Assembly (NCBI GenBank): GCA_944389815.1
Contig: CALXNS010000016.1
Location: forward strand, 1 to 64,000
DNA from: an uncultured Victivallis sp.
GTDB taxonomy: Bacteria; Verrucomicrobiota; Lentisphaeria; Victivallales; Victivallaceae
DNA length: 64,000 nt
Direction: 5' to 3'
The position numbers and the translations under genes were made by a program. This document shows positions 428 through 24,577 of the stretch, piece by piece (position 1 is the first letter of the stretch; each line of letters opens with the position of its first letter). The notes beneath the pieces were generated by a model, which searched no databases, was not told the DNA's origin, and saw only the letters and a list, made by a program, of their open reading frames with translations.

Positions 428-1606
428 TCATACATTATAGTTGCGATTTAGTATTACTCCCAACAGAAGCCAGAAATAAAAAAATAAAAAACTTCCAGCT
501 GCAAGAATATACCCCTCGGCCAACATATGTATTAAAAAAAAAGTTATTAAACCAGTTTTAAAAGCAACTTGTAAATTGAACCATTTAATATTTCTATACA
601 GAGCCCCTCCCATTTCCCCCAACAGGAAGCAGAAGGAACAAAATCCCAGAATCCCGGTCATCGATAAAATAGACAGCCAGGAACTTCCGGTCTCCACTCG
701 ACCATTATCGCCCAATGTATTAATTCCCGGCTCAACATCAACGGCACAGAAACCGACTCCCGTAAGCGGATTTTCCTTGAAACTCTCCCAGTGAAGCCGC
801 CAAAGATCTGCACGGGAATCAAAATTCAAGGACTCTTCATTACCGTTTTTCGCCAGCAGTTTCGCATAATACGGTTCCAATGCCGGCGTGAATATGACAA
901 GTGCCAATATGCCGAACAGCGCGATTTTGTATAATTTTGCTTTTCGATTCCGAACATATATGCAATGCAGTACCACAACCCCGACCGCCGTGGCAATGAA
1001 CGCACTTCTGGACGCCGCGCCGAATAAAAGACATACGCTCATGAATAACACGATCAGGAAAAACAGTTTTTTCCCCTTTCCGGAATTCTTCCAATGGTAA
1101 AGCTGGTAAAACATATAAAGCACGGTACAGCCCGAAATCGGCCCCAGCAGCATTGAATGAGTCGTAATGCCGCAAAAATAACCCGAATAAGCATGATAAC
1201 GTGAGATTCCGCAGAATAGCCCCAGGAAAGAAGCGACGATCACCACTGCAAACAGAATGTTGACGGCTCGAAACATGAAAATACGCATCCGGCAAAGTTC
1301 ACGCGAAAATAGAAACGGTCCCAGCAGTCCGGATACGATCACAAACGTCCCCAGACGTTGCCAGGGGGAAAAAAACGCGGGAACCTCATTTGCCACAATA
1401 CTGACCGCACAGGCAAGCCAGAAAAGAATCCCCGCCGGGTTGAACGTGATATGGGCGCGGGAAACCGCCAATCCATAAAGCAGTCCCGCGGCCATTACCA
1501 CGTAATAACCTGACGCCAGGCTCGGCGTCAGGTAAATAACGTTGTTGACCGCGATCAGCGCCAGCAGCCACGCGGCATATTTCAGCTTCGAATTCATTTC
1601 ATTCAT
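428..1606 (-). CDS. O-antigen ligase/polymerase-like membrane protein (Wzy_C family)
   Basis: This 392-aa polytopic membrane protein has roughly 11-12 hydrophobic segments. Its large loop carries the Wzy_C hallmark: SRADLW, then W..F..NPLTGVGF, at about residues 265-290. An Arg-containing GAASRSAF stretch precedes it. Family members ligate or polymerise lipid-linked oligosaccharide on the outer face of the inner membrane. The ATG at 1606 overlaps the TGA of the upstream glycosyltransferase by 8 nt, which suggests translational coupling. Ligase cannot be told from polymerase from sequence alone. The downstream acyltransferase begins after about 130 nt. Confidence 0.8.
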   Translation of the reverse strand: MNEMNSKLKYAAWLLALIAVNNVIYLTPSLASGYYVVMAAGLLYGLAVSRAHITFNPAGILFWLACAVSIVANEVPAFFSPWQRLGTFVIVSGLLGPFLFSRELCRMRIFMFRAVNILFAVVIVASFLGLFCGISRYHAYSGYFCGITTHSMLLGPISGCTVLYMFYQLYHWKNSGKGKKLFFLIVLFMSVCLLFGAASRSAFIATAVGVVVLHCIYVRNRKAKLYKIALFGILALVIFTPALEPYYAKLLAKNGNEESLNFDSRADLWRLHWESFKENPLTGVGFCAVDVEPGINTLGDNGRVETGSSWLSILSMTGILGFCSFCFLLGEMGGALYRNIKWFNLQVAFKTGLITFFLIHMLAEGYILAAGSFLFFYFWLLLGVILNRNYNV

Positions 1607-2768
1607 GTTCGATCAATGGAACGATCTTTCCGGAGACGGCTCCCTGATAAATTTTCTGCAACCGGGAACAGACGGTTTCAAGCGCAAAGATTTCTCTGGT
1701 CGCCTGAAACGCATGTTCACTGCGTGCCCGGAGCGCTTCCGGATGAGCGAGATTCTGAACCAGCTCCTCCACCATTCCCGATTCATCTCCCGCCGCAACG
1801 ACAATCCCGAGCGGTCCCGCCGTCCGATGCAACCGGGCAAGGTCAATCAAACCGCCAGAGGTTTCCATGAATGCCACCGGCACTTTTCGGGAGATCGCCT
1901 CCAGCAAAGTTGTGGGCAACCCTTCTGAAATTGAGGTCATGATGAAACAGCTCAAGTCCTGAAGCAATTCCGGAGCATCGCTTCGATATCCAAGCCAGTG
2001 GAAACGCTTCTCCACGCCGGCTGCAACCACTATTTTTTGCAGCTTTTCCAGATAAACCTCTTCTCCGGAACCGCAGACCATCGCATGGACTTCCGGCATA
2101 CGTTTCAGTACGCCGCACATAATGCGAACAAATGCCGGGGGATTTTTCACTTCACAGATACGGCACACCGTTCCGATCACCGGAGTCGATGCATCCACCC
2201 CGAGAAGTCGCTGCAGTTTATGAGCGGGAACTTCCGGAGGCGAAAAATCTATCGGATTATATACGACACAGCTTTCTGCGCTCCCATGGTAAAACTCCCG
2301 AACCCCCTGAGAGATGAAAATCTCCCGCTTCACATTCAACGGGAAACGACGGACAAGCCAGTCGGAAATACGCCGTCTGAAAGAGGGTTTTCGGGCTGGA
2401 AACAAATCCTCCGTCACGATGCCGTGTCGGGTCGTCACTACCGGAATATGCCGATAAAAGATCGACAACATCACCTGTATCCAGAATGCAACGACATGCG
2501 CATGAATGACATCAGGTTTGAATTCCCGTAAAACGCCAACAATCCGCCCCAAAATCCGGATCGAGTGCCCGTTGGCGCCCCCGATTACGAAAACCCGGAC
2601 ATCCGCCTGACGCAATGCCGTGGACAAATCTCCTTCGCCGCCGGCAATGCAGACCGCGACTTCCACTCCATACGACGGATTGCGGACAAAAAATGAACTG
2701 ATGTTCAAAATATGTCTGGCGATTCCATCCGCCAGCGTATTATCACGAATCAGAAAAAGTACACGCAT
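1599..2768 (-). CDS. Glycosyltransferase family 4
   Basis: This 389-aa GT-B glycosyltransferase starts with MRVLFLIRDN. The N-terminal Rossmann half carries the acceptor-side motif PDVIHAHVVAFW. The C-terminal donor-binding half has IGTVCRICEVKNP and an E-x7-E type motif, SEGLPTTLLEA. It should add a sugar to the growing repeat unit at the cytoplasmic membrane face. I chose the ATG at 2768 because the family core begins there. An in-frame TTG at 2801 would add 11 atypical residues. It lies 54 nt downstream of another GT4 gene and overlaps the O-antigen ligase-like gene by 8 nt. Donor sugar unknown. Confidence 0.85.
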   Translation of the reverse strand: MRVLFLIRDNTLADGIARHILNISSFFVRNPSYGVEVAVCIAGGEGDLSTALRQADVRVFVIGGANGHSIRILGRIVGVLREFKPDVIHAHVVAFWIQVMLSIFYRHIPVVTTRHGIVTEDLFPARKPSFRRRISDWLVRRFPLNVKREIFISQGVREFYHGSAESCVVYNPIDFSPPEVPAHKLQRLLGVDASTPVIGTVCRICEVKNPPAFVRIMCGVLKRMPEVHAMVCGSGEEVYLEKLQKIVVAAGVEKRFHWLGYRSDAPELLQDLSCFIMTSISEGLPTTLLEAISRKVPVAFMETSGGLIDLARLHRTAGPLGIVVAAGDESGMVEELVQNLAHPEALRARSEHAFQATREIFALETVCSRLQKIYQGAVSGKIVPLIEHE

Positions 2769-2822
2769 CGCTTCAATATTATCATTCAGAAAAATTTTCA
2801 ATCACCGAACTGCCCTGGATCA

Positions 2823-3983
2823 CTACTGTTTCAATATCCCAAGCAGTCCTGCCAGGCAATTCTCCGGCGCAAACGCCGTTTCCAGCTTTCGACGCGCCTC
2901 TGCACCATATCGATTCCTCAACTCCCGGTCATCAAGCAACCGTTGAATCAGCGCCGTTTTATTGTCCTCATCCGTGACAAAAACGCAACTTGCCTCTGAA
3001 ATCGGAATGCCTTCGAATCCCTTTGCCGTTCCGACGACGCATTTCCCGTTCATCATCGCCTCGACATTTTTCACCTTGATGCCGCTGCCCTTGACCAATG
3101 TCCCGATCGCCAGTTTGCTTTGCGCATAAAGTTCCTTTACGTCTTCTACAAAACCCAGCAATGCAATCTGTTCCGGCCACCGGTCAAACAAGGAGCGGCA
3201 ATATGCACTTCCCGATAACGCTCCGGCCACCGCGATTCTGGGAAAATGCGGCAGCCGCATTGCGATTCGATCGATGAAGTATTTTAACCCCAGCTCATTT
3301 TGCAGACTGTTGCCCGCAATCATGACAAAATCATAACGCGTATCATCGACATCCGTCTCCCGGGGGGATACCGGCGTAAGCGGAAGACCGATTTTTACAA
3401 CTTTTTCCATCGGAAATCCGGATTTTTTCAGGATGTCGCACTCATAATCCGCCAACACCGCCACATGACCAAATTTACGCAGACAATGCAATTCACTCTT
3501 TCGGAGCAGATATTCCTGAATCGCTCTCAACACGCGGTTTTCAATCTTGGAAAAACTCATCGACCGAAAGAATTGCAGATCGTGTGTGATGACCGTCGTC
3601 TTCCGCAGCGCCGCGCCCGGAATCATCAAATGCCAATGTATGTAATTGAGCAGAATATGATCAAGTTGTGGAAACCATTTCCGTAACCGGAACCGGAAAT
3701 ACAGGGCGTAAACCAGCCCTTGAATCACCGGAATTCCACTCTTGCCGAAAACATAATTCAACCCATGAAGTAATTTCGAGCTGGTCGGCGCCGGCAGGAC
3801 AAGCAAATCATTGCAGATTGTCCGATAAAGTTCCCGATCGATTTTCCGGTCACTCACCAGAACCAGGCTCACATGGAATTCCGCATCCCGAGCCAGATAC
3901 GTGAGGATCTCCCTGGTCAGGCGTTTGTTGCCCTCGTCGGTCGGAAACAAATCTCCATAAAAGAAAATTCCGATTTTTTTCAT
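2823..3983 (-). CDS. Glycosyltransferase, GT4-like
   Basis: This 386-aa GT-B enzyme starts MKKIGIFFYGDLFPTDEG at an ATG. The C-terminal half contains the nucleotide-sugar region GSGIKVKNVEAMMNGKCVV, typical of the Glyco_trans_1_4 group, where GSG.K..EA contacts the donor. The N-terminal half includes TTVITHDLQFFR and a VLADYECDILKK segment typical of the GT4 acceptor domain. It sits between the flippase (43 nt upstream) and another GT4 gene, so it most likely builds the exopolysaccharide repeat unit. Substrate not deducible. Confidence 0.83.
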   Translation of the reverse strand: MKKIGIFFYGDLFPTDEGNKRLTREILTYLARDAEFHVSLVLVSDRKIDRELYRTICNDLLVLPAPTSSKLLHGLNYVFGKSGIPVIQGLVYALYFRFRLRKWFPQLDHILLNYIHWHLMIPGAALRKTTVITHDLQFFRSMSFSKIENRVLRAIQEYLLRKSELHCLRKFGHVAVLADYECDILKKSGFPMEKVVKIGLPLTPVSPRETDVDDTRYDFVMIAGNSLQNELGLKYFIDRIAMRLPHFPRIAVAGALSGSAYCRSLFDRWPEQIALLGFVEDVKELYAQSKLAIGTLVKGSGIKVKNVEAMMNGKCVVGTAKGFEGIPISEASCVFVTDEDNKTALIQRLLDDRELRNRYGAEARRKLETAFAPENCLAGLLGILKQ

Positions 3984-4026: not shown

Positions 4027-5580
4027 TCAGCGCCGCCAGGTTGTGACAGCGTAAATGCGCGGGAGCAGTTTCGCTTTTGCCTTTTCCCGGAGAAAACTTC
4101 GTTCCTCCGTACTCAATCCCAGCAGCCAGATAAAACCGAGGGTCATGAATGGAAAAATCAGCCACGCCAGAAACAACCCGGACAAATCCCCGGGAAAACA
4201 GCGGTTCAGCAGAAAACTGAATGCGGCTGTCGGAACAACTACCTTCACCATCGGAATCCCGACCCCCGTCAGCCAGAGTCTCGGCGAAATCCCCTGCAGA
4301 CGTCGTACCCACCAGATTCGGCCCAGGGCACAGGCCAGTGTCGTTATCAACATCCCCCCCACGGTCATGACCACTCCGGCGCCACAATAATGCAGCACCC
4401 AGGACAATGGCAGGGTCAACAGCAGAAATCCACCCAGCATTGCCTGATAACCGGCGATTCTGCCGTATGCATTGACCATCACCATGTAGCCGGAAGTCAA
4501 TTTTTCAATAAAAAACATTCCAAGTACAATCCAGCATAATTCCGCTGTGAACGGCGGAGGATTGCGAAGCCATAATTTCAGCAGTTGATCCAGACGGACC
4601 AGCAACGGCACCAGTACCAGCAGCGATAAAAACATCGAGTATTTGCTGGCCAGAAGCGAAAGTTGCAGCACTCGTTTCTTCTCCCCGCGTCCGGCGGAAG
4701 CCGTGATCTCCGGCGCGATCGCTCCGAACAATCCGGCGGAAACCTGTTCCGTCTGCCCCCCGATCTGATTGGCGATGCCGAATGCGGCATTTACTTTGGC
4801 TCCCCAGAAAATGTTGACCAGAAAAATCATCCCCTGGGAACGCCCCAGATTTCCCAGCACACCGAACAATGACCAGCCGGCAAAAGAAAGCAGTTCCCGA
4901 ATCCGGCGCGGATGAAACCAATAGGCAAAACGAATCCGGCACTCCGGAAAAAACAATTCCGCACGCAATATCTGTACTCCGTTCCCGATGAAGTTGATCG
5001 CAAGCAACCCCGCGCTGTACAGAAGAAAACGGTTCCATGATGCATACAGAAGCCACAACGCAAGAGCCGCATTCAATATGGACGTCCCCACCGCAAACAG
5101 GGAAAGTTCAAAAATACGCTGCCTCGCAATATAGGTGCTTATGAAAGGAACGCTCGCTATATGCAACGTGGTCATGCCGAGCACACAGAAAAACGACAAC
5201 ACACAATCTCTCATCCGCTCCGGCGGAATATTGAGCACATGAAAAATCATCCAGAGCCCGAACGGAATTCCCACCACCAGAATCAACACGGCAAAAAACA
5301 GATGAATGCACAATGCGGAATTGAACCACAATTGAACACTCCGGAGACGTCCCTGCCCCATCGCATAGGAAAAGTGCCGCTGCACACTGCCGGCCAGGGT
5401 GTTGCTGATAAACGCCAGAAAACCGGTTATCCCGCCGATGACGGCGAACAATCCGAAATCCACCTCTCCCAGTCCGAGAAAAATCCAGCGGCTGGAAAGC
5501 AAACCAAGCGCGGCACAGAAAACCAATCGGCCATAACTGGCCAGGGCGTTGACCAGCATGGTCATGTTGCGCGACATCAT
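4027..5580 (-). CDS. Wzx-type polysaccharide flippase (MOP/MATE superfamily)
   Basis: This 517-aa integral membrane protein has about 12-14 hydrophobic helices along its whole length. The N-terminus (MMSRNMTMLVNALASYGRLV) and the following LGLLSSRWIFLGLGEVDFGLF segment match the polysaccharide biosynthesis/flippase class. Such proteins move undecaprenyl-linked repeat units across the inner membrane for Wzy-dependent assembly. Together with the ligase/polymerase-like gene this makes a Wzx/Wzy-type pathway likely. It follows a GT4 gene by 18 nt and precedes another by 43 nt. The second Met (5577) is an equally possible start. Confidence 0.85.
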   Translation of the reverse strand: MMSRNMTMLVNALASYGRLVFCAALGLLSSRWIFLGLGEVDFGLFAVIGGITGFLAFISNTLAGSVQRHFSYAMGQGRLRSVQLWFNSALCIHLFFAVLILVVGIPFGLWMIFHVLNIPPERMRDCVLSFFCVLGMTTLHIASVPFISTYIARQRIFELSLFAVGTSILNAALALWLLYASWNRFLLYSAGLLAINFIGNGVQILRAELFFPECRIRFAYWFHPRRIRELLSFAGWSLFGVLGNLGRSQGMIFLVNIFWGAKVNAAFGIANQIGGQTEQVSAGLFGAIAPEITASAGRGEKKRVLQLSLLASKYSMFLSLLVLVPLLVRLDQLLKLWLRNPPPFTAELCWIVLGMFFIEKLTSGYMVMVNAYGRIAGYQAMLGGFLLLTLPLSWVLHYCGAGVVMTVGGMLITTLACALGRIWWVRRLQGISPRLWLTGVGIPMVKVVVPTAAFSFLLNRCFPGDLSGLFLAWLIFPFMTLGFIWLLGLSTEERSFLREKAKAKLLPRIYAVTTWRR

Positions 5581-5598: not shown

Positions 5599-6750
5599 TT
5601 AACGCTCAACCGCACGAATCAGCGCCTCCACGCTGTCGGAAAAGAGTTTGAAATTGAACTCCGCCTGAACGGCCGCCATACCCGCCGATTCCAGACGGTG
5701 ACGCTCCGGTTCATTTTCCAGCAGGGAAACGGCCTGCTTCAGGAAAGCGTCCGCATCTTCCGCCACCAGCAGACCGTTCTGAAGCAATTTCGAATCCTTC
5801 AAACCACGCACGGCAAAAGGCGTACACAGACAAACCCGGCCCATTCGCAGCGACTCAAGAACCTTGATGCAGGTTCCACTGCCGGAATAAATCGGCGCCA
5901 CCGAAAACAACGCATTCCGGTATTCCTCTTCCAGATCTTCGACGAATCCCGGAATCTCCACATTCGGATACGCACTCCACCTTTCCTGAAAGCGTAACGG
6001 CAGTTCCCGCCCGATAATCCGATAACGCAATTGAGGATAATTCCGGTGCAACGTCGGCCATACTTCGGTCAGAAAAGTATCAATTCCCTCGTAATTGGCC
6101 GGATAACCGAGATACCCGACACTGATGATCTGCGGTCGGGAACGATCCGATGGAGAATATTCCCGTTCCGGTTCCCGCGGCAGGTTGGGCAGCCAGCCCT
6201 TGGGGATTGCGGGCAGAGACGACAACTGTTCCGCATTGGCAATCCAGAGACCCGCAGATTTCCGGAATATCGCATCCTGCCAACGCCGAACCAGCATACG
6301 CAGAAATGCCGGCATTCGACATTGCGAGGCATATATCGTCTGAAAACTCTCCAGCGGCAGATCATCGACATCCAGCAACAGCGGGGCAACCTGCCAGGCG
6401 CGCGTATAGACCGCCCAGGCGGCATACCTGCAAACCACATAATCGAATTTCACCCCGGGCCAGAGTTGCGCCAGCTGCGGAAGAATCCCGCCCGATGGAC
6501 AGTGCAGAAACGGAACCTCACGGGACAGCAGTCGATCCAGAAACCATGTCGGCGAATAACGTTTCATCGGACACACCCAGGCGATGTTCCATTCGGCATC
6601 CTGTTTCTCCAGAAAAGTCCCACCCACCGGAATGAGTGTGTACACACGTCCCTCCCGCCGGAGAGCCTCATACAGAAAATTGGTGCGCTGCGCCCCGCCG
6701 GCGGAGAGATCCCGGGGATCTCCCGGGGCTATGAGTAAAATATTTTTCAC
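5599..6750 (-). CDS. Glycosyltransferase, GT4-like
   Basis: This 383-aa GT-B glycosyltransferase begins with MKNILLIAPGDPRDLSAGGA, where the glycine-rich loop is the expected acceptor-domain loop. Residues near 290-310 carry SGSGTCIKVLESLRMGRV, the donor-binding EA-type motif. The start codon is GTG at 6750. Its TG is shared with the stop codon of the upstream pyruvyl transferase (GTGA overlap), so translation is probably coupled. It belongs to the exopolysaccharide operon and should elongate the repeat unit. Substrate unknown. Confidence 0.85.
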   Translation of the reverse strand: MKNILLIAPGDPRDLSAGGAQRTNFLYEALRREGRVYTLIPVGGTFLEKQDAEWNIAWVCPMKRYSPTWFLDRLLSREVPFLHCPSGGILPQLAQLWPGVKFDYVVCRYAAWAVYTRAWQVAPLLLDVDDLPLESFQTIYASQCRMPAFLRMLVRRWQDAIFRKSAGLWIANAEQLSSLPAIPKGWLPNLPREPEREYSPSDRSRPQIISVGYLGYPANYEGIDTFLTEVWPTLHRNYPQLRYRIIGRELPLRFQERWSAYPNVEIPGFVEDLEEEYRNALFSVAPIYSGSGTCIKVLESLRMGRVCLCTPFAVRGLKDSKLLQNGLLVAEDADAFLKQAVSLLENEPERHRLESAGMAAVQAEFNFKLFSDSVEALIRAVER

Positions 6751-8000
6751 TGAAAATCAAAATTCCTTTCCGCCAATTGCAGAACTCCGGGAAGATTTTC
6801 CCGGACTTTCTCCTTCAAGGTCGGTATCTGTTCCAGAAAATTTCCGATTCCTCTTCTGATCTCTTCCGTGTTGTCATCCGACGGGATCGGGAAGAGGCAG
6901 GTCTCAGGAAGTTGGAAATGTGCCAGAAGTCCATTGAATTTGCCCTGATATCCAAAACCGGCGGCGGGAATTCCCTGAGACAGAGCGGCGATTCCCAGAT
7001 GCATCCGCGCCGTAATCAATGCATCCGCCTCTTTGACCACGCCCTTCAGTTCTCCCGCCGACAACGGCGCGGACATATGGAAAACCCGTTCAGGAAATCG
7101 CCGGGACAAACATTCATACAACGGCCCCAGACAGCGGTTGTCGCCGATCCGCTCCCGGAAATCATGGGCGATCAACAGAATGTTCCATGTATGCTCTTCC
7201 AATATTTTCTCCAGCAGCACGGCCAGCAGACGAATTTGTTTATCGATGGCGGCGTCTGAAAGATTGCGCGAAAGCATCGGATGATAATTGAATGCAAGAA
7301 TCGGATTTGCGCTTTTCCGTTTCCATCTCAAAACTTCATCATATTCCGGAAATCCGGTTTCCGGTTGCAGCAGAAAGGCCGTATCCGCGGTCAGACAGCT
7401 CCGCCGACCGGTCAGACGGTCAAAACGCTCCTGCGAATTCCGGTCGCGTAAATTGAAACGGAAATCCGCACTCGCGCAGCGGATCCCCCGCAGAACCGCC
7501 GACGACGGCACGGCATTGAAACTGAATCCGAGCAACGTTGTCGCAATATGGCGGCGGCGAAGCAAATCCGCGCTCGCCAGCAGAATCAACGACACTTCCG
7601 GAGCATAGTAACCGTCCATGACATCCGCTCCAAGTATCACGCACCGTTCCGGCCGTATCTCCTCGGCCGCACGAATCACATTCCGCAGCGGTTCCCGCCC
7701 GGCCCAGACATTCAAAGCCGTCCAGCCGCGCGCCTCAACTGCCCGGGCCGCCGAATCCGAAGCGGTGATCACGAAAATTTCATCTTGCGGAAAACGCTGC
7801 GCCACGACACGGATCATCGCGTCGTCTCCGCGGGAACCGAAAACACTCCAGGGATCGCAGGCAATCAGCAACAATCTTCCCGGCTGTACCGGCAACGGGA
7901 CGGAACCGATGCGCAACTCTCTCCATTGGCGGAACAACCGTCGTATCCGCAGATAATTTGAAATTCTCCGCCGGATCGTTCTGATGATATTGTCGTTCAT
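6747..8000 (-). CDS. Polysaccharide pyruvyl transferase family protein (CsaB/WcaK-like)
   Basis: This 417-aa protein matches the polysaccharide pyruvyl transferase fold. It has the N-terminal SVFGSRGDDAMI loop, CVILGADVMDGYY, a central RDRNSQERFD segment, and a C-terminal ARMHLGIAALSQGIPAAGFGYQGK donor-binding stretch. Members add a pyruvate ketal to a sugar residue, giving the polymer negative charge. The in-frame reading extends upstream to 8144, but the ATG at 8000 is preferred. It overlaps the stop of the upstream SUMF1-domain gene by 4 nt (ATGA), while the extension lies inside that gene and looks unlike the family. The next gene starts within its stop codon. Confidence 0.85.
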   Translation of the reverse strand: MNDNIIRTIRRRISNYLRIRRLFRQWRELRIGSVPLPVQPGRLLLIACDPWSVFGSRGDDAMIRVVAQRFPQDEIFVITASDSAARAVEARGWTALNVWAGREPLRNVIRAAEEIRPERCVILGADVMDGYYAPEVSLILLASADLLRRRHIATTLLGFSFNAVPSSAVLRGIRCASADFRFNLRDRNSQERFDRLTGRRSCLTADTAFLLQPETGFPEYDEVLRWKRKSANPILAFNYHPMLSRNLSDAAIDKQIRLLAVLLEKILEEHTWNILLIAHDFRERIGDNRCLGPLYECLSRRFPERVFHMSAPLSAGELKGVVKEADALITARMHLGIAALSQGIPAAGFGYQGKFNGLLAHFQLPETCLFPIPSDDNTEEIRRGIGNFLEQIPTLKEKVRENLPGVLQLAERNFDFQ

Positions 8001-10105
8001 CGGGAAAACTTTCTGCGGATTTTGCACAACACCACCGCGGCAACAATGCCCGCAACAAATGAGGCAAGACAGCATCCGGCGACAATCCCGCCCCATTGAC
8101 TCAAGCCAAGCTGTTTCAGTTTCCAGTAACAGCGAACCTTCCATGGCATGTCCGGAAAGTTTCCGGTCCCCTCCACACGACGCGCGAGCCGTCCCCCGAA
8201 AACGTAACTGATCTCATCAATCCCGCCCGGATCGCAATTCGACGCATGCAATCCGAGTTCCGTATAACCGAAACTTCCGCCGCGCAAACCGCGGACGCCG
8301 ACTACTCCATATTGCCAGTCCTCCTGCCATTCCCACACATTCCCCCCCTGCTGCAACGTCCCGTAATAGCTCGAACTGTCCGGATACGCGTCCACCGGCG
8401 CCAGATAATACGGCGCCCCCTGAGCGAGATGATCGCCCTTCTGATAGTTCACTCCTTTCGATGAACGTTCGGGAGCAGGATTATCCGGCAGATCGGAACT
8501 CCGGTTCGGGTAATCATGATATTTGCGCGCACCCGGTTTCGTCGGATCGTAATAAGCGGCTTTGTACCATTCGTTCTGATTGGGGATGAAATATTTCGCA
8601 CCCGGGTTGCGGCGCCCGAAATCGGCATCGGGCTTTTTCCGGCCGGAACGAACCAGTTCAAACTCCCGGGTGTCATACGCGCCCTGTTCGGCATCTCCTT
8701 CGGTGACGCCGAGCTCTCCGGCATCGCCCTTCGGCTTACCGTAATGCAGAAAATTCGCATAACGCGCCAGACTGTAAAACGAAATATAACTTACCGGACG
8801 ATTCTCCCAGCCGGATTTCGCCCGATAAATATAAGTTCCATCCTCCTGCCGAATCCGGAGTATTCCTCCGAGGACTCCGCTTTCCTGATCCGGATGGAAC
8901 AATCCATGAGGATCCTTTCTTCCGGCAACCGCATTCAGAAAATCGACCCATTCCTGATTGGAGATTTCACAGCGACCAATTTCATAGGGGTAGTTGACCG
9001 CACCGAATCCGCCGTAAAAAACGTCCGGCGGATTCCCCGGATCCCCGACCAGCACATAATCACCACCTTTCCCTGCGGAAACAGCTTCAGAGGAAGAGGA
9101 GGCAGATGCGGCACGGCCGATTCCCGGTTTGCTCGCCGGCGGTTCTCCCGGCTGATCCGGTTGTTCTGCGGAGGTTGCCGCTCGCGCAAGCCGGAATCCG
9201 AAGGTGGAAAGTTTTTTGTTCGGATAATCTCCTTCATACAGATCGGAACGCAGATATTTTGCCGGACGGATCAGCGAACCACCCACCGCAAGCTGAAACT
9301 CCCCACGGGGGCATTCAATCCACTCCGCAACGTTGCCGCCCTGATCGAATGTCCCGAAATATCCGGGCGAATCCCAGAATCCGACCGCAGTCAGATGGGG
9401 GAAAGGTACCGCCCAGCGATTGGCATAATAATTGGCTCCCGGTATTTGTCCCGGAGTCGCGGACGGAACTTCATCGCTCTGCGTCGCATAACGGAAATAG
9501 CGACCGTTTCCGCCGTAAAACGCCGCCTTGTACCACTCATCGTAACTGGGAAGAAAATAGCGCGCTCCGGGATTCCGGCGCACCAGCGGCAAAGTTCCTG
9601 CCGCATTCGGCGGAAAGGCGCGGGTGTCATAAGCGCCGCTCTCGGCCGTGCCTTCGGTCAGGGCGCCGGCTGTTTTCCCGAGACTTTTCCAATGCAGGTA
9701 ATTGGCGTAGCGTGCGGCATCATACCAGTTGACGAAGACAACCGGCAGCTCTTCATAACCCGGTTTGCATGTATAATGACAGCTGCCGTCGGCATTTTCA
9801 CTCCGTTCAATTCCGCCCCAGAAATGTTCCGACATCTGCCGGGTGTATAATTCACAGGGATCGGAGAGCGAGGCCACCTCATTCAGGAAGTCACAATACA
9901 TCTTGTTCGTGACCTCGAATTTCATGATCTCGAACTCTTCAGCCACAAACCCGCGTCCTGTCTTGGGATCCGCGTTCACTCCCGGTTCGCCGACGGGACA
10001 GAATTCACTTCCGTCAGCGAAAAGCATCATTCCGAAAAAGAATGAAGAAAAGAGAACAATATATTTCGACAATTTGATTTTATTGTCTTGTGCCGTATTG
10101 ATCAT
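7997..10105 (-). CDS. Membrane-anchored protein with two SUMF1/FGE-like domains
   Basis: This 702-aa protein has an N-terminal signal sequence (about residues 12-31). Two consecutive formylglycine-generating-enzyme-like (SUMF1, C-type-lectin-fold) domains lie at about 36-315 and 345-645, joined by a Ser/Pro/Gly-rich linker. The C-terminal transmembrane helix (about 672-695) ends in the basic tail KIRRKFSR. Repeated landmarks in both domains include NPGARYFLP/NPGAKYFIP, DEWYKAA/NEWYKAA, QGGNVAEW/QGGNVWEW and a GFRLAR-like end. The cysteine pair used by catalytic FGE near the C-terminus of the domain is not visible in either copy. A binding or structural role on the periplasmic side is therefore likelier than sulfatase activation. 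It is coupled to the pyruvyl transferase gene by an ATGA overlap. Confidence 0.85.
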   Translation of the reverse strand: MINTAQDNKIKLSKYIVLFSSFFFGMMLFADGSEFCPVGEPGVNADPKTGRGFVAEEFEIMKFEVTNKMYCDFLNEVASLSDPCELYTRQMSEHFWGGIERSENADGSCHYTCKPGYEELPVVFVNWYDAARYANYLHWKSLGKTAGALTEGTAESGAYDTRAFPPNAAGTLPLVRRNPGARYFLPSYDEWYKAAFYGGNGRYFRYATQSDEVPSATPGQIPGANYYANRWAVPFPHLTAVGFWDSPGYFGTFDQGGNVAEWIECPRGEFQLAVGGSLIRPAKYLRSDLYEGDYPNKKLSTFGFRLARAATSAEQPDQPGEPPASKPGIGRAASASSSSEAVSAGKGGDYVLVGDPGNPPDVFYGGFGAVNYPYEIGRCEISNQEWVDFLNAVAGRKDPHGLFHPDQESGVLGGILRIRQEDGTYIYRAKSGWENRPVSYISFYSLARYANFLHYGKPKGDAGELGVTEGDAEQGAYDTREFELVRSGRKKPDADFGRRNPGAKYFIPNQNEWYKAAYYDPTKPGARKYHDYPNRSSDLPDNPAPERSSKGVNYQKGDHLAQGAPYYLAPVDAYPDSSSYYGTLQQGGNVWEWQEDWQYGVVGVRGLRGGSFGYTELGLHASNCDPGGIDEISYVFGGRLARRVEGTGNFPDMPWKVRCYWKLKQLGLSQWGGIVAGCCLASFVAGIVAAVVLCKIRRKFSR

Positions 10106-10622: not shown

Positions 10623-11201
10623 CTATGGAACCTGGATTTTGGTAAACTTATATTGCCTCGGGTCGATTTCGGCGGTGACATAACCGCCGACAATCTCAAG
10701 CTTGACAACCCACAGGAAACGTTTCCGTCTTTCAATCAAATAGCCGCAGGAACCTTCAAACTGGCGCGGTTCTTCAATTACAAACCGATCATTGACCGCG
10801 ATCTCTTTTTTATATTCCACTCTGGCATTAAGCGCCAGTTCCTCCATGACCTGCAACCCCCGCAGCTCTTCTACAAAAGAGCCCTGCTGAATTTTGGGAA
10901 CATCTAAAAGCGCCCGCACGGAGTTGGTTCTCCACACAGAGAGCCGCTGGGTGGAATCGAGACGCGCAAAGACATAAGACGGCAGCATGGGACGCAGAAC
11001 TTCATCTTCGTAGCGATAAGAATTCGTTTTATAGTAAACTTGATGAACCTTGATTGCCGGCATAACCGGCAGATAAGCAGGAATTCCTTTTTCTTCAAGC
11101 TGGCGATACAGTTTTATTTCATGCCGGGGAACCGTCCTCAGCGGATACCACAAAGAGTCTTCATCCTCGGTAATGACGATCTTTCTGGGGGCAATTTTCA
11201 T
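10623..11201 (-). CDS. NusG/RfaH/UpxY-like transcription antitermination protein
   Basis: This 192-aa protein has a NusG N-terminal domain (about residues 15-115), containing LWYPLRTVPRHEIKLYRQL and the MLPSYVFARL segment. The C-terminal KOW-like part (about 130-190) contains NDRFVIEEP..FEGSCGYLI. Specialised NusG paralogues ride with RNA polymerase and prevent early termination in long polysaccharide operons. As the first gene of a large exopolysaccharide operon it fits the UpxY/LoaP/RfaH role. The ATG at 11201 follows a strong GGAGGTG at a good distance. The specific recruitment sequence is not known. Confidence 0.88.
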   Translation of the reverse strand: MKIAPRKIVITEDEDSLWYPLRTVPRHEIKLYRQLEEKGIPAYLPVMPAIKVHQVYYKTNSYRYEDEVLRPMLPSYVFARLDSTQRLSVWRTNSVRALLDVPKIQQGSFVEELRGLQVMEELALNARVEYKKEIAVNDRFVIEEPRQFEGSCGYLIERRKRFLWVVKLEIVGGYVTAEIDPRQYKFTKIQVP

Positions 11202-11760: not shown

Positions 11761-11788
11761 ACTATAGCATCATTTCAGGAAATGTCAA
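11761..11788 (-). promoter_or_regulatory. Sigma-70-type promoter of the exopolysaccharide operon
   Basis: On the minus strand TTGACA (11788-11783) and TATAGT (11766-11761) are separated by 16 nt. This is a near-consensus housekeeping promoter pointing toward the NusG-like gene. Transcription should start near 11754. Confidence 0.65.
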
Positions 11789-12196: not shown

Positions 12197-12222
12197 ACAA
12201 AAAAAAATAAAGGATTTTGATC

Positions 12223-13263
12223 ATGCCGACGCAACCGCACAAAAATTTGACCGAAGAGATCGAGGACATTCTGACCCGGGAGATCATGCATGGCGTATAT
12301 CCGCCGGGCGGAATGTTTCCGAGTGAATTTGATTCCGTGAAACGTTTCGGCATCAGCCGCGTGACCGTCCGCAGAGTTTACGCGAATCTGGAGAAGAAAG
12401 GAATTCTGCTCCGCAAGATCCGCTGCAACACCACGGTGAACGACCGGATGACCGCGGCGACCGATCCGATCCGAATGGTCGGTGTCCTCCTGCCGCTGAG
12501 CCACGAATTTTCCAGAACATTTCTCAACAGCATGAATCAGGAAGCCGCCCGCGAAAACGCCCTGCTCGTACTCGCACCGCCATTCAACAACGGCAGGGAA
12601 CAAAGTCGCGTCGCCATCGACATGGTATGCGGCGGCGTCCGCAACCTGGTGGTCTGGGGGTACGACCACGACCTCGATCTGGAAGTTTTCCGCCGGCTGC
12701 GTCTGCTGGGAATCAATCTGGTCTTTTTCGACCACGTCGCGCCCGGCAATATCGCCGACTACGTCGCGCTGGACAACGAACACGCAATCTCGGCATTGCT
12801 GGATAAAGCGGTGCAGGACGGATGTCACCGGTTTGTTTTCGTCAACACCGCCGGACTTGAGGTTGAAACGAATATGGAGCGTGAACGGCTCTTCAGGAAA
12901 TTTTGTCAGGCGGAAAATCTGCCATGCGAAGTGACCGCCCTGCCGTGGTATGAAATGCTAAAAAACGGTGCGGCGGAGCATTGCCGGAAATTTTTCGACG
13001 ACCTGCCGGAACCGGAAAAAACCGCGGTCTTCTGCGCCAACGCATTTCAAGCGGACTGCATTTATAAAGCGGTCGGCGCACGAGGGAGATATTATTCGAT
13101 CTCGACCAGCGAAACCGGTTACGCGCCGACGATCTTCAACATCATCCAGCCGATCTCCGCAATGGCGAAACGCTGCTTTGAATTGCTGAGAAGTCAGCAG
13201 TCGGAAGGCAAACACTGGAAAGCAAAGGATTCCCGACTCAAGGGCGTGCCGGACTGGAAATGA
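12223..13263 (+). CDS. GntR-family regulator with periplasmic-binding-like sensor domain
   Basis: This 346-aa repressor-type protein has an N-terminal GntR winged helix at residues 5-70 (LTEEIEDILTREIMHGVYPP; FGISRVTVRRVYANL). The C-terminal LacI/ribose-binding-like effector domain (about 85-330) includes VGVLLPLSHEFSRTF and NLVVWGYDHD. This AraR-like architecture senses sugars. I chose the ATG at 12223, preceded by AAAGGA, over an in-frame TTG at 12217. It is transcribed with the GH2 gene 35 nt downstream, so it probably controls the GH2-pseudopilin-glycosidase cluster. Effector unknown. Confidence 0.85.
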   Translation: MPTQPHKNLTEEIEDILTREIMHGVYPPGGMFPSEFDSVKRFGISRVTVRRVYANLEKKGILLRKIRCNTTVNDRMTAATDPIRMVGVLLPLSHEFSRTFLNSMNQEAARENALLVLAPPFNNGREQSRVAIDMVCGGVRNLVVWGYDHDLDLEVFRRLRLLGINLVFFDHVAPGNIADYVALDNEHAISALLDKAVQDGCHRFVFVNTAGLEVETNMERERLFRKFCQAENLPCEVTALPWYEMLKNGAAEHCRKFFDDLPEPEKTAVFCANAFQADCIYKAVGARGRYYSISTSETGYAPTIFNIIQPISAMAKRCFELLRSQQSEGKHWKAKDSRLKGVPDWK

Positions 13264-13298
13264 AAATAATCTGCAATAAATAATGGGAAGAACTTGAA

Positions 13299-15635
13299 AT
13301 GTTGTCGAATGCGGTTTCATTGAATGGCAAATGGGCGCTTTGCGGTCGCTTGGAAACCGTCGGGCACACGGCGGAGATCTTTCAGAACGGTACGATCGCC
13401 ATTCCGGCTTCCGTGCCCGGAAATATTGAACTTGAACTCTGCCGCGCCGGTTTGGCGCCCGAGCCGTTTTTCGGTACCAACTCCAACGCCTACCGGAAGT
13501 TTGAGGCGTATGAGTGGTGCTTTACGCGGGAGTTTGAGCTTGATGACGCCGACGGTGAATTTGTGTTGCGTTTCAATGGCCTCGATTGCTTCGGAACCGT
13601 TTTTGTCAACGGTGAAAAGATCGGCACTTCGCACAACGCACTGATCCCGGCGGATTTCCCGCTCCACTCCCGGCTCCTGAAAAAGGGACGCAACACGGTC
13701 ACCGTGCACATCGCCAGTGCGCTCAATGAATTCCGCAGGGCGCCACTGGTTCCGATGTGTGTGAACATCAGTCCCTTCGGCTTGGAACAGACCCGGGTGC
13801 GCAAACCGGCGCACTGCTGGGGGTGGGATATCGCCCCGCGGCTTTCGCTCGGCGGGATTTTCCGCTCGGTGGAGCTTCGCCGTCTGAAACCGGTCAGGAT
13901 TGAAGATTTCGCCGTCGTGATGTGTGACTGCAATGAGCAGGAAGCAAACCTGCGGATTCACTGCAAATTTTCGACGCCCGAACCGGATTTTTCAAATTTT
14001 CTGGTCACCGCCGATGGCGTTTGCGATGATTCTGTCTGGCATGTGGAGCAGCGACCGTGGTCATTCCAGCAGATTCTCAAGGTCGCCGTGCAGTCGCCGA
14101 AACTCTGGAATCCGAAACATTACGGCAAGCAGGAGCTTTACAAGGTGACGATCGCGCTCCGCGACCTTTCGGGCAACGTACTCGACGCGAAAGTCTTCAA
14201 CTACGGAATCCGCTCGGTGCGACTGGAATTCAATCAGATCGCAACGGAAACGCCGACGCCGGATTTCCAGTTTTACGTCAACGACATTCCGATCCGCATC
14301 GCAGGGTTGAACCATGTCCCCTGCGACGCCCTGCACTCGCGTGACGCAGGGAGAATGCCGAAGATCCTCGATCTCGCCAGAGATGTGGATGTCAACATGC
14401 TGCGCATCTGGGGCGGCGGCGTGCCGGAAAGCGAAGAGTTTTACGATTTCTGCGACTGCGAAGGAATTCTGATCTGGCACGACTTCATGTATGGCTGCGC
14501 GCTCTATCCGTGCGACCGGGAGTTTCTCGACGAGGCGGAGCGCGAAACGGTCGCGATCCTCAGGGAGCGCCGTCATCACGCCAGCATCGTATTGTGGGCG
14601 GGTGACAACGAGTGCGACACGTCGCCGTTTTACATCCGCAACCGCTTTCTCAATCCCGGAGACAATATCCTGACCCGCGAGACATTGCCGCAGGCTGTGC
14701 GGATGTATGCGCCGGGAACCCCATATCTACCGAGTTCGCCCTATATTTCGCCGGAGTGTCTGCAAAAGGGGAAGCGTGCGGAGATCTTCGATCCGGCATT
14801 TCTCGCGCCGGAACAGCATCTCTGGGGCAGTCACGAATATATGAAGAGCGATTTCTACAAGACCGGCGCCTCGTTTGTCAGCGAAATCGGCTATCATGCC
14901 TGTCCGAACGTCTCTACGCTGAAAACCTTCCTTTCGCCGGAAAAACTCTGGCCGTGGAACAACGACGAGTGGTATCATCACGCCAGCAATCCCTTCATGC
15001 CGAACCAGGATTACGACTATCGCATCAGGATCATGGCGGATCAGATCAAAGAATTTTTCGGCACGATTCCGGACGGCGTTGAAACGTTTGCGCTCGCCAG
15101 CCAAATCTGTCAGGCGGAGGCGAATCAGTACTTTGTCGAACGCGCCCGTTCACGGCGGAAATTTTCGGGAATCCTCATCTGGAACCTGATCGACTGCTGG
15201 CCGCATTTTTCGGACTCGATCGTTGATTATCATTTCGGGAAAAAGCTTTCGTATCATTATTGCCGCCGTCAGTTCGGCGAATTCCTCATCATGGTCGGTG
15301 AAGCGACGGACTGGCATTGGCCGGTGATCTTCTGCAACGACTCAAACCGCCGGCGCAAAGGTTGTTACAGCATCCGAAAACACGGCGGAGACGTCCTGGT
15401 GCAAGGTTCGTTTTCCGCGGAGCCGGGCGAACTTCGCCAGCTCACGCGAATCAGCTGCACGTGCTCCGAACAGGCTCTGCTGCTGATCGAGTGGGAGTTT
15501 GAAGACGGTACAGGCGGCGTCAATCACAAAGTCACTGGAATGCCGTGTTATGACTTTGATGTGTTCCGCTACGAGTGGCTGCCGGCGATCGCCGCGCTCG
15601 ACGGCTCGTTCGATGCCGCTAAGGTCGGCTGTTGA
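13299..15635 (+). CDS. Glycoside hydrolase family 2, beta-mannosidase-like
   Basis: This 778-aa enzyme has the GH2 layout: a jelly-roll sugar-binding domain (about 1-180, with FNGLDCFGTVFVNGEKIG), an immunoglobulin-like domain, and a TIM barrel from about residue 310 (MLRIWGGGVPESEEFYDFCD). The putative acid/base is Glu438 in LWAGDNECD. The nucleophile is Glu529 in FVSEIGYH. The WGGG and WAGDNE motifs are closer to beta-mannosidase (exo-hydrolysis of beta-mannosides) than to beta-galactosidase. There is no signal peptide, so it is probably cytoplasmic. It follows the GntR gene by 35 nt with a GGAAG ribosome binding site. Confidence 0.85.
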   Translation: MLSNAVSLNGKWALCGRLETVGHTAEIFQNGTIAIPASVPGNIELELCRAGLAPEPFFGTNSNAYRKFEAYEWCFTREFELDDADGEFVLRFNGLDCFGTVFVNGEKIGTSHNALIPADFPLHSRLLKKGRNTVTVHIASALNEFRRAPLVPMCVNISPFGLEQTRVRKPAHCWGWDIAPRLSLGGIFRSVELRRLKPVRIEDFAVVMCDCNEQEANLRIHCKFSTPEPDFSNFLVTADGVCDDSVWHVEQRPWSFQQILKVAVQSPKLWNPKHYGKQELYKVTIALRDLSGNVLDAKVFNYGIRSVRLEFNQIATETPTPDFQFYVNDIPIRIAGLNHVPCDALHSRDAGRMPKILDLARDVDVNMLRIWGGGVPESEEFYDFCDCEGILIWHDFMYGCALYPCDREFLDEAERETVAILRERRHHASIVLWAGDNECDTSPFYIRNRFLNPGDNILTRETLPQAVRMYAPGTPYLPSSPYISPECLQKGKRAEIFDPAFLAPEQHLWGSHEYMKSDFYKTGASFVSEIGYHACPNVSTLKTFLSPEKLWPWNNDEWYHHASNPFMPNQDYDYRIRIMADQIKEFFGTIPDGVETFALASQICQAEANQYFVERARSRRKFSGILIWNLIDCWPHFSDSIVDYHFGKKLSYHYCRRQFGEFLIMVGEATDWHWPVIFCNDSNRRRKGCYSIRKHGGDVLVQGSFSAEPGELRQLTRISCTCSEQALLLIEWEFEDGTGGVNHKVTGMPCYDFDVFRYEWLPAIAALDGSFDAAKVGC

Positions 15636-15658
15636 GAGAAAACGGGAGGAATCTGCTG

Positions 15659-15925
15659 ATGAAGAAAAAATCGGAATTGCTGCCGACGGCTGTTGGCGTT
15701 GTCCACCCGGCAAAGGCGATGGCGGCAGAAGGATGCCGTCTCATTTCCAGCTTTTCCGGGGCAATATGGTCTCGCAACCCCGAGCGGATTTGTCTTGTCC
15801 AACATGTCTCCTTCAATCCTGTGCGTACGGTACGCATCGAACAGCGATCGGAAACCGGAACTCCCTGTGCAACCGACAAAGGCTTTCCGGCAATTCCATT
15901 TCAAAAAGAGTTGACCTTGAAATAA
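15659..15925 (+). CDS. Small ORF of unknown function (88 aa)
   Basis: An ATG preceded by GGGAGGA at good spacing opens an 88-codon frame just after the GH2 gene. The protein begins MKKKSELLPTAVGVVHPAKA. It has no signal peptide, membrane segment or family I recognise. The same DNA is also open on the opposite strand (15569-15904), so coding direction is uncertain. It may be a small gene or a non-coding repeat-like element between the GH2 and pseudopilin genes. Confidence 0.35.
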   Translation: MKKKSELLPTAVGVVHPAKAMAAEGCRLISSFSGAIWSRNPERICLVQHVSFNPVRTVRIEQRSETGTPCATDKGFPAIPFQKELTLK

Positions 15926-16021
15926 AGAGACTAAATGAAAGGATCAGAAAACGCAAAACAATCAACAACTTCCCGATGGAAAACACGGCCAATTCTCAAG
16001 AGAAGAACAGAAGGGATTATC

Positions 16022-16798
16022 ATGAAAAGAAATACGGCAGCGTCAGGGATGTTTTCTTGCAGAAAAAATTATTTCACACTGATTGAACTTTTAGTAGTTA
16101 TATCGATCATCGCGATTCTCGCGGCGATGCTTCTTCCGGCGCTCAATAAGGCGCGTGACCGAGCGAAAGCCGCCAGATGTGCGAGTTCCGCCGGTCAGCT
16201 CGGTCAGGCGGTTCTGATGTATGCCGGAGATTTCAACGATATGATTATGCCTGTTCTGGGAACAGATTCCGGCTGGGGACAAGACGATTCGACCGCCTGG
16301 AACTACATCCTGGTGTCGAGAGGATATGTGCCCCTCAACCTCGACGACCATCACAACTTAAAAAAATATGGTGTTACCGCCGTTATGAAAGCCGGCATTC
16401 TCGGATGTGGAGAAAAAGTCAATTCCTACGGCAACGGAACGCAGTTTGCGATGCCGTTCAACTGGGGCAGCGGTACGCCGGGATATGAGAAAAATGCCAA
16501 CATCACAGCCGGATACAAAATCACCAGGACCAAACGTGCCTCGAAACGCTGTATGTTCGCGGAAAGTCAGCCGAACGGCAAACCATATTTTCAGTGCGGC
16601 TGGGGATATCCACGCTGGGACAATGAAGGTACTGATCCCGGCGTCGATACGCCGCATGACAACGGCAACCGCACCAACATCTGCGCGATGGATGGTCACG
16701 TGGAAACGCTGACCTTCATCGAACTGCTCATCAATACGGCAGGCGGCGAAAATCCGGCGACACTCGTGAACGACTGGTTCGGAATCCGTTCGCACTGA
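16022..16798 (+). CDS. Type II/IV pseudopilin-like protein (prepilin N-terminus)
   Basis: This 258-aa protein has a basic leader (MKRNTAASGMFSCRKNY), then [20 protein letters not shown], the hydrophobic helix of type IV pilin/type II secretion pseudopilins with Glu at +5. The globular part ends with H-x11-DG (residues near HDNGNRTNICAMDG), similar to the prepilin-associated H-x9-DG group common in Lentisphaerota and Planctomycetota. The residue before the cleavage position is Tyr rather than the usual Gly. The ATG at 16022 has AAGGGA upstream, whereas the longer frame from 15935 has no support. It lies between GH2 and a secreted glycosidase and may display or export enzymes, which is inference. 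Confidence 0.85.
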   Translation: MKRNTAASGMFSCRKNYFTLIELLVVISIIAILAAMLLPALNKARDRAKAARCASSAGQLGQAVLMYAGDFNDMIMPVLGTDSGWGQDDSTAWNYILVSRGYVPLNLDDHHNLKKYGVTAVMKAGILGCGEKVNSYGNGTQFAMPFNWGSGTPGYEKNANITAGYKITRTKRASKRCMFAESQPNGKPYFQCGWGYPRWDNEGTDPGVDTPHDNGNRTNICAMDGHVETLTFIELLINTAGGENPATLVNDWFGIRSH

Positions 16799-16866
16799 CA
16801 AATTGTTTTGTCCGCACCGGACTCCGGCGCGGATGATGAAGGAATTTTGATTTTTGAGGAATGGAA

Positions 16867-19800
16867 ATGAAGAAATTACTTTCCACGTTTCTCTCGTGCA
16901 CTCTTGCTGCGGTCGTCGCAACTGCCGGAGAATCAGAAAAAACGATTTCGCTGACCGCGGAAGGCGTGACGATCTCTTTCGGAGCGTTTCAGACGACTTT
17001 GGGGTATCCGGTATTCAACTGCGGCAGCGGCAGAAATGCTGTGCGCCCTGCCGATGTAGACGTCGCGCCCGACGGATTGAGCGCCACGGTTCAATATGGC
17101 GAAAACGAAACGATCGAATGTCGGCTGCAGGGTGATGTCCTGGAGATGAAATTCTCACCGGAAGCGTTGAAAAGCAAAGTTCCTTCAATGTCGATGCGGC
17201 TCCCGCTGGAGTTCATCGACAGCGGCGGCAGCTGGAGCTTTGCCGCACCTGGAGCAGAAGCACTCGGACTGACGCAATCGGTCTTCCCACGTGAAAAAGC
17301 GAAAGAATGGTACTCCTTTGCCGGAAACGCCGATTCCTGCCGCATCGTTTCAGCAAAGGAAAACGGCGACGCGCTGACGATCACAGGACGCGCCCGCTTC
17401 TACATGAAGGATGAACGGCTCTGGAATTGTTCTTACTTTTCGCTCGTCTATTTCCCGGCGATCAGAAACGGTGTGAGCCGGTTCCGGATCACGCCGGGGA
17501 AAGCATCATCGGCGCCCTCCCCTGAAAAGCAGTCCGGGAACAGTTCGCCGTTTGAATTTGCCAAGCATGCTCTGGAGATCAATTGCGGAGATTTCCGAAC
17601 GACGCTGCTCTACCCCATCTACAAATACGGGGAAAACTGGCAAAAGCACGTTACGCCGCAGACAGTGACGATCGCGCCCGACGGATTGAGCGCCACGCTC
17701 CAGTACGGCGAAGAAGAGAACATCGAGTGCGCAATACGGGACAATAAACTGGTGATGAAATATTCTCCCGGCATCCTGAAGTGGAAACAACCCGCCATGG
17801 AAATGCGCATCATGCAGGATTTCACCGAAAACGGCGGCTGCTGGGAGTTCTTCAAACCGGCGAAGGACGCCCTCGGCGTGGCAAAGTCGCGCTTCCCGCG
17901 CGAAAAGGCGACTGAATGGTTTTCCTTTTCCGGAATCGCTGATGGCTGCCGCATTGCGATCGCCGACGGCAAGGGCGATTCGCTGACGGTAAAGAGCCGC
18001 ACCCGTTATTATATGGCCGACAGACGGCTGTGGGGGAAATGCTATTTTGACCTCGTCTATTTCCCGGCGATCGTGAATGGCGAAAGCTCGATCTGTTTTG
18101 AGATCGGCAAAGGTACCGAAAGCGCCGTCGTGCTCGATCGTTTCGGGCAGTTCGACAAACTGGAATATGCCGACAAGATCCACAGCGAAGAAGAGTTGCG
18201 CAAAGACAAAGAGGCACATGAAAAATATTACGCCTCGTTCCCGAAGCTCGACCGCACCTTCTGGGGCGGCCTCCCCGGTTCGAAGGAGAAATACGGTCTC
18301 ACTGCCACCGGCTTCTTCCATCTTGAAAAAATCGAAGCGCTCAATGGACGCACCATGCTGGTCGATCCCGAAGGGAATTTGTATTTCCACATCGCCATGA
18401 GCGGCATTGCGCCCGGAAACGAAGCGACCTGTGTCGCCGGACGCGAGAACATTTACGCCGAACTTCCCGCAAAAGACGGCGAATTCCGTCAGGCGTGGCT
18501 CGGCAGAGACGCGATCTCGTTTTATCTGGTCAACTACATCAGAAAATACGGCTCCTACAACATCGAAACATGGCAGAAGCAAATGGTCGAACGCTGCCGC
18601 GCGTGGGGATTCAACTCCTTCGGCGTATTCATGTGGATCGCCGGAGAAAACGACAAGCTTGGATTTGCGATCACCGACTGTCTCGAACGATATGCTTCAC
18701 GCAAACCGTTTCACTTGATCTGCCCGAGTTTCATCGACCCCTTCGACGAACACAACTTTCCGCTGCTGGAAGAAGATTTCTCCGAACAGACCCGAAGATT
18801 CCGGGGCAATCCGGCACTGATCGGCTGGTATACCGAAAACGAACGTTTCTACAACATCGTCTTCCCGGCAATCTTGGCGAAGGACCAGGAGATCCCCGCC
18901 AAGCGCCGTTTCGCCGAAATGATGCGCGAACGTTACCACGGCGACATCACGAAATTCAACAACGCGTGGAAGACCAATTTCGTCGACTTCGAAGCAGTTG
19001 CCTCCAAGCCGATGAAAGAGGCCGGCACTCCGGACGCCGAAGCGGATCAGGCGGCGTATGAAGCGTTTTTCTTCGACGCATATTACAAACTGCTTTCAAC
19101 GACGCTCAGAAAGGTCGACCCCGATCACCTCTACCTCGGCGAGCGGATGCTGGTCGCACAGACCTACCACGAAGCGGCGGTCAGGGCGATGGGAAAATAT
19201 TGTGACGTTTTCAGCGTAAACTACTACACGGATGAATACGATCCGGCGGAGATCGAACGCTTTGCCAAAAGTTCAGGCAGGCCGCTGATGCTTTCCGAGT
19301 GGAGCTTCGGCAGTCCGGAACAGGGACTTTTCGGCTGCCGCAACAAGGCAAACGATGAAGAGCGCGGCAAGGCTTACAGCCGTTATGCGGAAAATGCCGC
19401 CGCGTCGTCCTGCGTCATCGGCTTCCAGTGGATGAATCTGCTGGATGAATCGAACACCGGACGCGGCTTCAATACGACCACCGGTGAACGTTTCAACATG
19501 GGTTTCATCAATGTCTGCGACCGTCCCTTCAAAAAGCTTGCGGCGCACGCTGCCGCCAGTAATGCAAAGCTCTACGATCTGGTCGAAGGCAAAGCGGAAC
19601 CGGTTCCGGTTTCAGTCAGTGCGGCCAATCGCGCCGAAAACAGGATTCTCGGCATCGGTAAAGTGAAACCTGGAATCGCAGTCGATGCATTGCGCACGAA
19701 ATATCCGGAGCGTCCGGGTGAAGTCATCAACCGTTCCGTTGCCGGCAGGAACCCATCGAGAGCAGATCGTGCCGACATGATCTGCGGATGGGATGAGGAA

Positions 19801-24498: not shown

Positions 24499-24577
24499 TG
24501 GTCGGGATAGAGAGATTTGAACTCTCGACCTTTTGACCCCCAGTCAAACGCGCTAGACCAAGCTGCGCTATATCCCG
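24499..24577 (-). tRNA. tRNA-Pro (GGG anticodon)
   Basis: The minus strand folds as a cloverleaf. The acceptor stem is CGGGATA/TATCCCG, the D-arm AGCGCAGCTTGGTCTAGCGC, and the anticodon stem TTTGA/TCAAA encloses loop CTGGGGG (anticodon GGG). The T-arm is GAGAG TTCAAAT CTCTC. Discriminator A and an encoded CCA end the gene. Confidence 0.95.

Follow-up and report, generated by a model that had tools for sequence, protein, structure and literature searches.

The window, a stretch of 64,000 nucleotides whose first position is also the start of its contig, carries on its minus strand a polysaccharide operon that is visible only as far as the end of a Wzy-family gene. Read along this strand, a NusG paralogue is followed, after a gap of 517 bases, by the gene of a tandem FGE-fold (SUMF1-like), membrane-anchored protein of 702 aa, called hereafter P0001 (7997..10105). 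Then come genes for a polysaccharide pyruvyl transferase (pst, 6747..8000), a glycosyltransferase (GT_a, 5599..6750), a Wzx-type flippase (4027..5580), two more glycosyltransferases (GT_b, 2823..3983, and GT_c, 1599..2801) and a membrane protein of the Wzy/O-antigen-ligase family (428..1606, PF04932). The pyruvyl transferase matched PF04230 (E 2.4e-19, obtained on a longer ORF) and gave a weak match, below cut-off, to the CsaB model. The three glycosyltransferases were assigned by Pfam and by homology to counterparts in another genome, G094. The flippase had no Pfam match; we name it so because its sequence is hydrophobic, because of where it lies, and because it is homologous to genes found beside relatives of P0001 (loci L065 and L118).

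The NusG paralogue (10623..11201, minus strand; PF02357, E 1.7e-9) is UpxY/RfaH-like; it matched the UpxY model with an E value of 8e-14, yet below the cut-off of that model. UpxY proteins prevent termination in the 5′ leaders of capsule operons, according to PMC7819879, and by analogy a paralogue of this kind fits a polysaccharide operon. About 560 bases before it, a promoter-like site agrees with 11 of 12 consensus positions (11761..11788, minus strand), but it is weak, the total number of sites in the region being near the shuffle mean. The search for RNA families in positions 1-30000 of the window gave a single tRNA (24502-24577) and nothing else. On the plus strand, positions 12217-20259 hold a GntR/LacI-type regulator gene followed by GH2-like and GH42/CBM9-like genes, likely a sugar-utilisation cluster divergent from the polysaccharide operon.

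Two stretches of P0001 matched PF03781 (FGE-sulfatase; E 8.3e-35, 121 bits versus a cut-off of 23.3), which is far beyond chance. They correspond to domain 1 (residues 56-307, 9185..9940) and domain 2 (residues about 349-640, 8186..9061). Hydrophobicity was computed by the Kyte-Doolittle scale in a 19-residue window, and revealed two segments, one near residue 12 and a stronger one at residues 670-698 (maximum of 2.58 at residue 674), followed by a basic tail. The first belongs to a signal-peptide-like segment called from hydrophobicity alone (residues 1-31, 10013..10105). The second is a predicted transmembrane helix (about residues 670-694, with its tail 8000..8098), also present in the structure model as a helix spanning residues 668-701. 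Taken as predictions, the two segments and the basic tail are what one expects of a protein that is exported and anchored by its C-terminus. The stop codon of P0001 (7999-7997) is overlapped by the ATG of the pyruvyl transferase (8000-7998) in the form ATGA, so that the initial annotation was right on this overlap as on the two domains; the strand can now be specified as minus. From the overlapping start, the pyruvyl transferase is 417 aa long, versus 465 aa for the mechanical ORF.

Structure models were made with AlphaFold2 and compared with known structures, as the initial annotation had proposed. Folded alone, domain 1 reached a pLDDT of 83.3 and a pTM of 0.88. The full-length model had a mean pLDDT of 63.8, its reliable parts being mostly domain 2 and some of the C-terminal helix; domain 1 was poor in it because MAFFT had placed the single-domain relatives on domain 2. 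Both domains have the FGE fold: with VIA-align they matched proteins of this fold at Z 20-23, and Foldseek results agreed. For domain 1, the best matches were CarF (Z 23.3, 3.1 Å over 232 residues) and TvpA (23.2), followed by PorK (21.8), PvdO (21.3) and human FGE (21.2, 2.7 Å over 209 residues). For domain 2, they were CarF (Z 23.2, 3.0 Å over 235 residues), TvpA (22.0), PorK (21.4) and human FGE (21.0). EgtB, OvsA, ToxD and CalU17 were, like PvdO, also close in fold. Comparison of the whole of P0001 with PDB sequences by phmmer gave nothing at E 0.01, and a profile search was needed to find PDB relatives.

The neighbours in this list are diverse. CarF (PDB 5aoh) is a single-domain protein that belongs to a carbapenem antibiotic locus, and to our knowledge it has no membrane anchor. 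TvpA (PDB 2y3c), a variable protein of Treponema denticola, uses an FGE/C-type-lectin fold for display and is diversified by a retroelement. We rejected P0001 as a target of such a diversity-generating retroelement, since no PF00078 reverse transcriptase was found in the source genome, while the control was positive in 3 of 14. In the type IX secretion system, PorK/GldK is an FGE-fold protein that serves in the structure of an envelope machine, but it is a lipoprotein ring component, unlike P0001. Membership in the gliding/type IX families GldJ and GldK was rejected too, the scores against the NCBIfam equivalogs being 17.9 bits versus 382.9 and 10.6 versus 350. SUMF2 (PDB 1y4j), which lacks FGE activity, shares the fold with P0001 at Z 20-21, as does FGE/SUMF1. 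SUMF2, TvpA, CarF and PorK are thus examples of fold neighbours that work without FGE activity, which speaks for the non-FGE role proposed below. The FGE fold is common to enzymes and non-enzymes, and does not by itself give the function.

Human FGE has a cysteine pair, Cys336 and Cys341, which are named as mutated residues in PDB titles and are the catalytic ones. Neither domain of P0001 has this pair. Residues 266 to 378 are free of cysteine, which means that no alignment could place the pair in the last strands of domain 1. The last strands of domain 2 contain a single cysteine, Cys624, at +15 from the start of the GGS strand and not at +5 or +10, the positions of the catalytic cysteines in FGE. 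The absence of the pair, as noted in the initial annotation, was thus borne out, and it extends to the visible parts of the two relatives described below. That P0001 would be a working FGE maturing sulfatases, as the Pfam family name and the fold might suggest, is almost certainly wrong, given the missing cysteines in both domains and in the relatives, and given that no sulfatase is found among the genes annotated at the locus. The pair was also absent from all 16 other FGE-fold ORFs of relatives (loci L010-L039) retrieved by a strand-motif pattern that divergent strands would escape. Judging from these sequences, a cysteine-less FGE fold is ordinary in the superfamily. Therefore, the missing cysteines alone are no argument for a role in polymer binding or export.

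Another possibility is that P0001 is an enzyme acting on the glycan by a non-FGE chemistry of the fold, in the manner of PvdO- or EgtB-type proteins. The proximity in fold to PvdO, EgtB, OvsA, ToxD and CalU17 speaks for it, as does the last-strand region of domain 2, strongly conserved in the three members of the family; the active site of FGE sits in this region. However, no known catalytic residues were identified in the sequence of P0001, and Pfam gave no sign of the second metal-binding domain that EgtB-type enzymes need. We consider such an enzyme unlikely. Used as queries, the last-strand pieces of P0001 gave weak matches only.

Relatives of P0001 were searched in several sets of genomes. 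Matches were found in 5 of 61 genomes of relatives (source included), in 8 of 137 genomes of the order, in 9 of 197 of the class (at E 1e-12), and in 71 of a 387-genome sample of the phylum. FGE-fold domains as such are widespread, being present in 53 of the 61 genomes (source included). The tandem family was found in only 3 of the 197 class genomes, each from a different taxonomic family: the source genome (f1), G094 (f4) and G445 (f10). Besides the source, only G094 and G445 matched both domains at 46-47%; taken separately, identities to P0001 in these two genomes were 46-47% for domain 1 and 50-52% for domain 2. In addition, two partial relatives were found in viral contigs (35-38% identity) and seven relatives in a set of genome contigs (25-36% in the best segments, mostly Planctomycetota). 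In the ORFs examined, none of these seven shows a tandem with a P0001-type tail.

The tandem gene abuts a flippase or pyruvyl-transferase gene in each of the three genomes where the family occurs. The G094 locus (L065) reads wzx, tandem gene, pst, GT_a, GT_b, GT_c, wzy, acyltransferase, so that the six other glycan genes of the window all have one-to-one homologues there, at 31-50% identity (wzx 31%, pst 31%, GT_a 48%, GT_b 44%, GT_c 50%, wzy 42%). Upstream lie genes for an export protein (Poly_export, SLBB) and a family 4 glycosyltransferase. A 955-aa ORF with weak matches to Ig-like domains is also present upstream of the flippase (L065:4001-6868). From G445, a contig of 3378 bases shows wzx and the adjacent tandem gene, cut off before its C-terminus. 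The sample thus consists of two complete neighbourhoods, where linkage to wzx, wzy and glycosyltransferases is full, and one fragment in which wzx alone is visible. The co-occurrence with polysaccharide genes in relatives, whose absence would have counted against the initial annotation, was thus found. The tie between this tandem family and polysaccharide genes across three taxonomic families is new here; among the papers listed on SUMF1 or FGE with polysaccharide clusters, no title or abstract opening describes it.

In G094, the tandem gene starts 2 bases after wzx and is separated from pst by 91 bases, so the overlap between P0001 and pst seen in the window is not kept. This weakens the idea of a special link with pyruvylation, and favours a link to the pathway as a whole. 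Among the 137 genomes of the order, the pyruvyl transferase has one strong relative, in G094. GT_c has three matches at E 1e-20 in the same set; the third, in G072, is accompanied by wzy, while the rest of the cluster is missing from the 20 kb of sequence inspected there. This speaks against the tandem protein as a general partner of Wzy. Two single-domain proteins from congeners (L072 and L073) were also inspected, and since just one of them has sugar-nucleotide and glycosyltransferase-like genes nearby, we claim no co-occurrence for them.

Patchiness of this kind (3 of 197 class genomes) is expected for exchanged loci, and P0001 might be a passenger without any glycan role, carried along in a mobile polysaccharide locus. 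The G094 gene has one shift of frame, close to where domain 1 ends (L065:9919-9973); a decaying gene would suit a passenger, but the shift may also come from faulty assembly, the genome being a draft. Against a passenger stand the recurrence of the same neighbouring genes in three families, the translational overlap in the window, and a conservation equal to that of the glycosyltransferases: the tandem domains are 46-52% identical across genomes, like the glycosyltransferases (44-50%) and above wzx and pst (31%). We regard it as highly unlikely.

The C-terminal helix with its basic tail had been read initially as a membrane anchor or a sorting signal. The anchor is supported, since the G094 relative also has the helix and the basic tail. 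A cleaved sorting signal is not supported: the C-terminal 80 residues contain no PEP or VPEP-like motif in P0001 and no PEP in the G094 protein, and the exosortase gene that was to be looked for elsewhere in the source genome (PF09721) was found neither there, in an assembly 95% complete, nor in G094. On these grounds P0001 was rejected as an exosortase substrate. PF09721 occurs in 20 of the 61 genomes of relatives and in 5 of 9 members of the genus, the source being counted among the nine. G445 has one exosortase, and the tail of its tandem protein lies beyond the contig end. A GG motif, the signal of rhombosortase-type proteases, precedes the transmembrane helix of P0001; being absent from the G094 tail, it was set aside. 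Because the visible tails lack PEP and no exosortase was detected in two of the three genomes, the tandem family is probably retained in the inner membrane and exposed to the periplasm.

The nearest relatives outside the tandem family are single-domain, secreted-looking FGE-fold proteins of the same phylum and of Planctomycetota, about 30-45% identical over the matched stretch, most of them with PEP-CTERM tails. Among 19 aligned ones, chosen as full-length single-domain ORFs, the motif before the C-terminal transmembrane segment was a literal PEP in 13, a variant in 3, and absent in 3. They share with P0001 the domain subfamily, a signal-like N-terminus and a C-terminal transmembrane segment with basic tail, but have one domain and mostly PEP, whereas P0001 has two domains, no PEP, and a place inside a Wzx/Wzy operon. 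In a 21-row tree of domains, the three copies of domain 2 formed one supported group (100/98), apart from the copies of domain 1, whose own grouping was weak (61/62, with two long-branch rows inside). Since the domain 2 copies group together, the duplication most likely predates the split of the source, G094 and G445. The simplest history we can infer from the sequences is that, after a duplication, a PEP-CTERM-type surface protein was taken up by a polysaccharide locus, with a simple anchor in the membrane.

With such an ancestry, P0001 could still be a protein of the surface or matrix that is expressed together with the polysaccharide, its tail being left uncleaved or cut by another protease. 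The tails of the 19 relatives favour this, and so does the exosortase of G445, where surface release would be possible; it is only within this alternative that we keep an exosortase reading. However, the two visible tails have no PEP, and neither the source nor G094 has an exosortase. Furthermore, P0001 lies inside an operon, whereas PEP-CTERM proteins are mostly single-gene units, according to PMC1569441; the same paper places exosortase genes among polysaccharide genes. A surface protein thus appears somewhat unlikely.

Other FGE-like proteins were observed in the source and its relatives. Of the three PF03781 matches in the source genome, two are in P0001 and one is in an 871-aa protein on another contig, C78 (L075:6049-8664). 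This protein is a protein kinase fused to an FGE-fold domain, and FGE-fold matches in frames of about 860-900 aa, akin to it, occur across many relatives. Three congeners have proteins of 1244-1265 aa with an FGE-like N-terminal stretch (L067:7328-11062, L068:6588-10385 and L069:9426-13202), sharing a C-terminal tail that ends in GGGGAVAM(E/D); for the L068 protein, the one scanned of the three, there was no Pfam match at E 0.001.

Relatives of P0001 in two distant families adjoin the same kind of genes, and for this reason P0001 probably handles glycan within the assembly line and does not activate sulfatases. More precisely, there is about an even chance that it plays a structural or binding part in one kind of Wzx/Wzy-type polysaccharide assembly locus, that is, a non-FGE glycan binder. 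Membrane anchoring, together with genes beside the flippase, suggests a binding or scaffolding role in the periplasm. Suppose that P0001 crosses into the periplasm while its C-terminal helix keeps it in the inner membrane, a topology that we infer. Its two cysteine-less FGE-fold domains would then most likely bind glycan, either lipid-linked or still growing, next to the flippase and the polymerase, and P0001 would act as a glycan receptor or scaffold at the Wzx/Wzy step. The family on which this proposal is built has three members, one frame-changed and one cut off.

A narrower version, which we consider decidedly unlikely, makes P0001 a receptor in the periplasm dedicated to the pyruvylated repeat unit that its operon produces. 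Its two domains would recognise the ketal-pyruvate which the coupled transferase adds, and would control whether the glycan is flipped, polymerised or, once finished, tethered. In Gram-positive bacteria, a pyruvylated wall polymer anchors SLH-domain proteins, according to PMC10435577 and PMC6030368. If true, the receptor would be a diderm, FGE-fold counterpart of SLH recognition of that polymer, and binding of a pyruvylated glycan would amount to a quality-control or tethering step in the Wzx/Wzy pathway. We know of no such step in pathways of this type, and none of the papers listed describes one.

FGE-fold proteins are usually annotated as sulfatase-modifying factors, and the P0001 family warns against equating a Pfam name with a function. 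Being tied to one kind of polysaccharide locus, the family would offer a concrete, testable function for a non-catalytic branch of the FGE fold.
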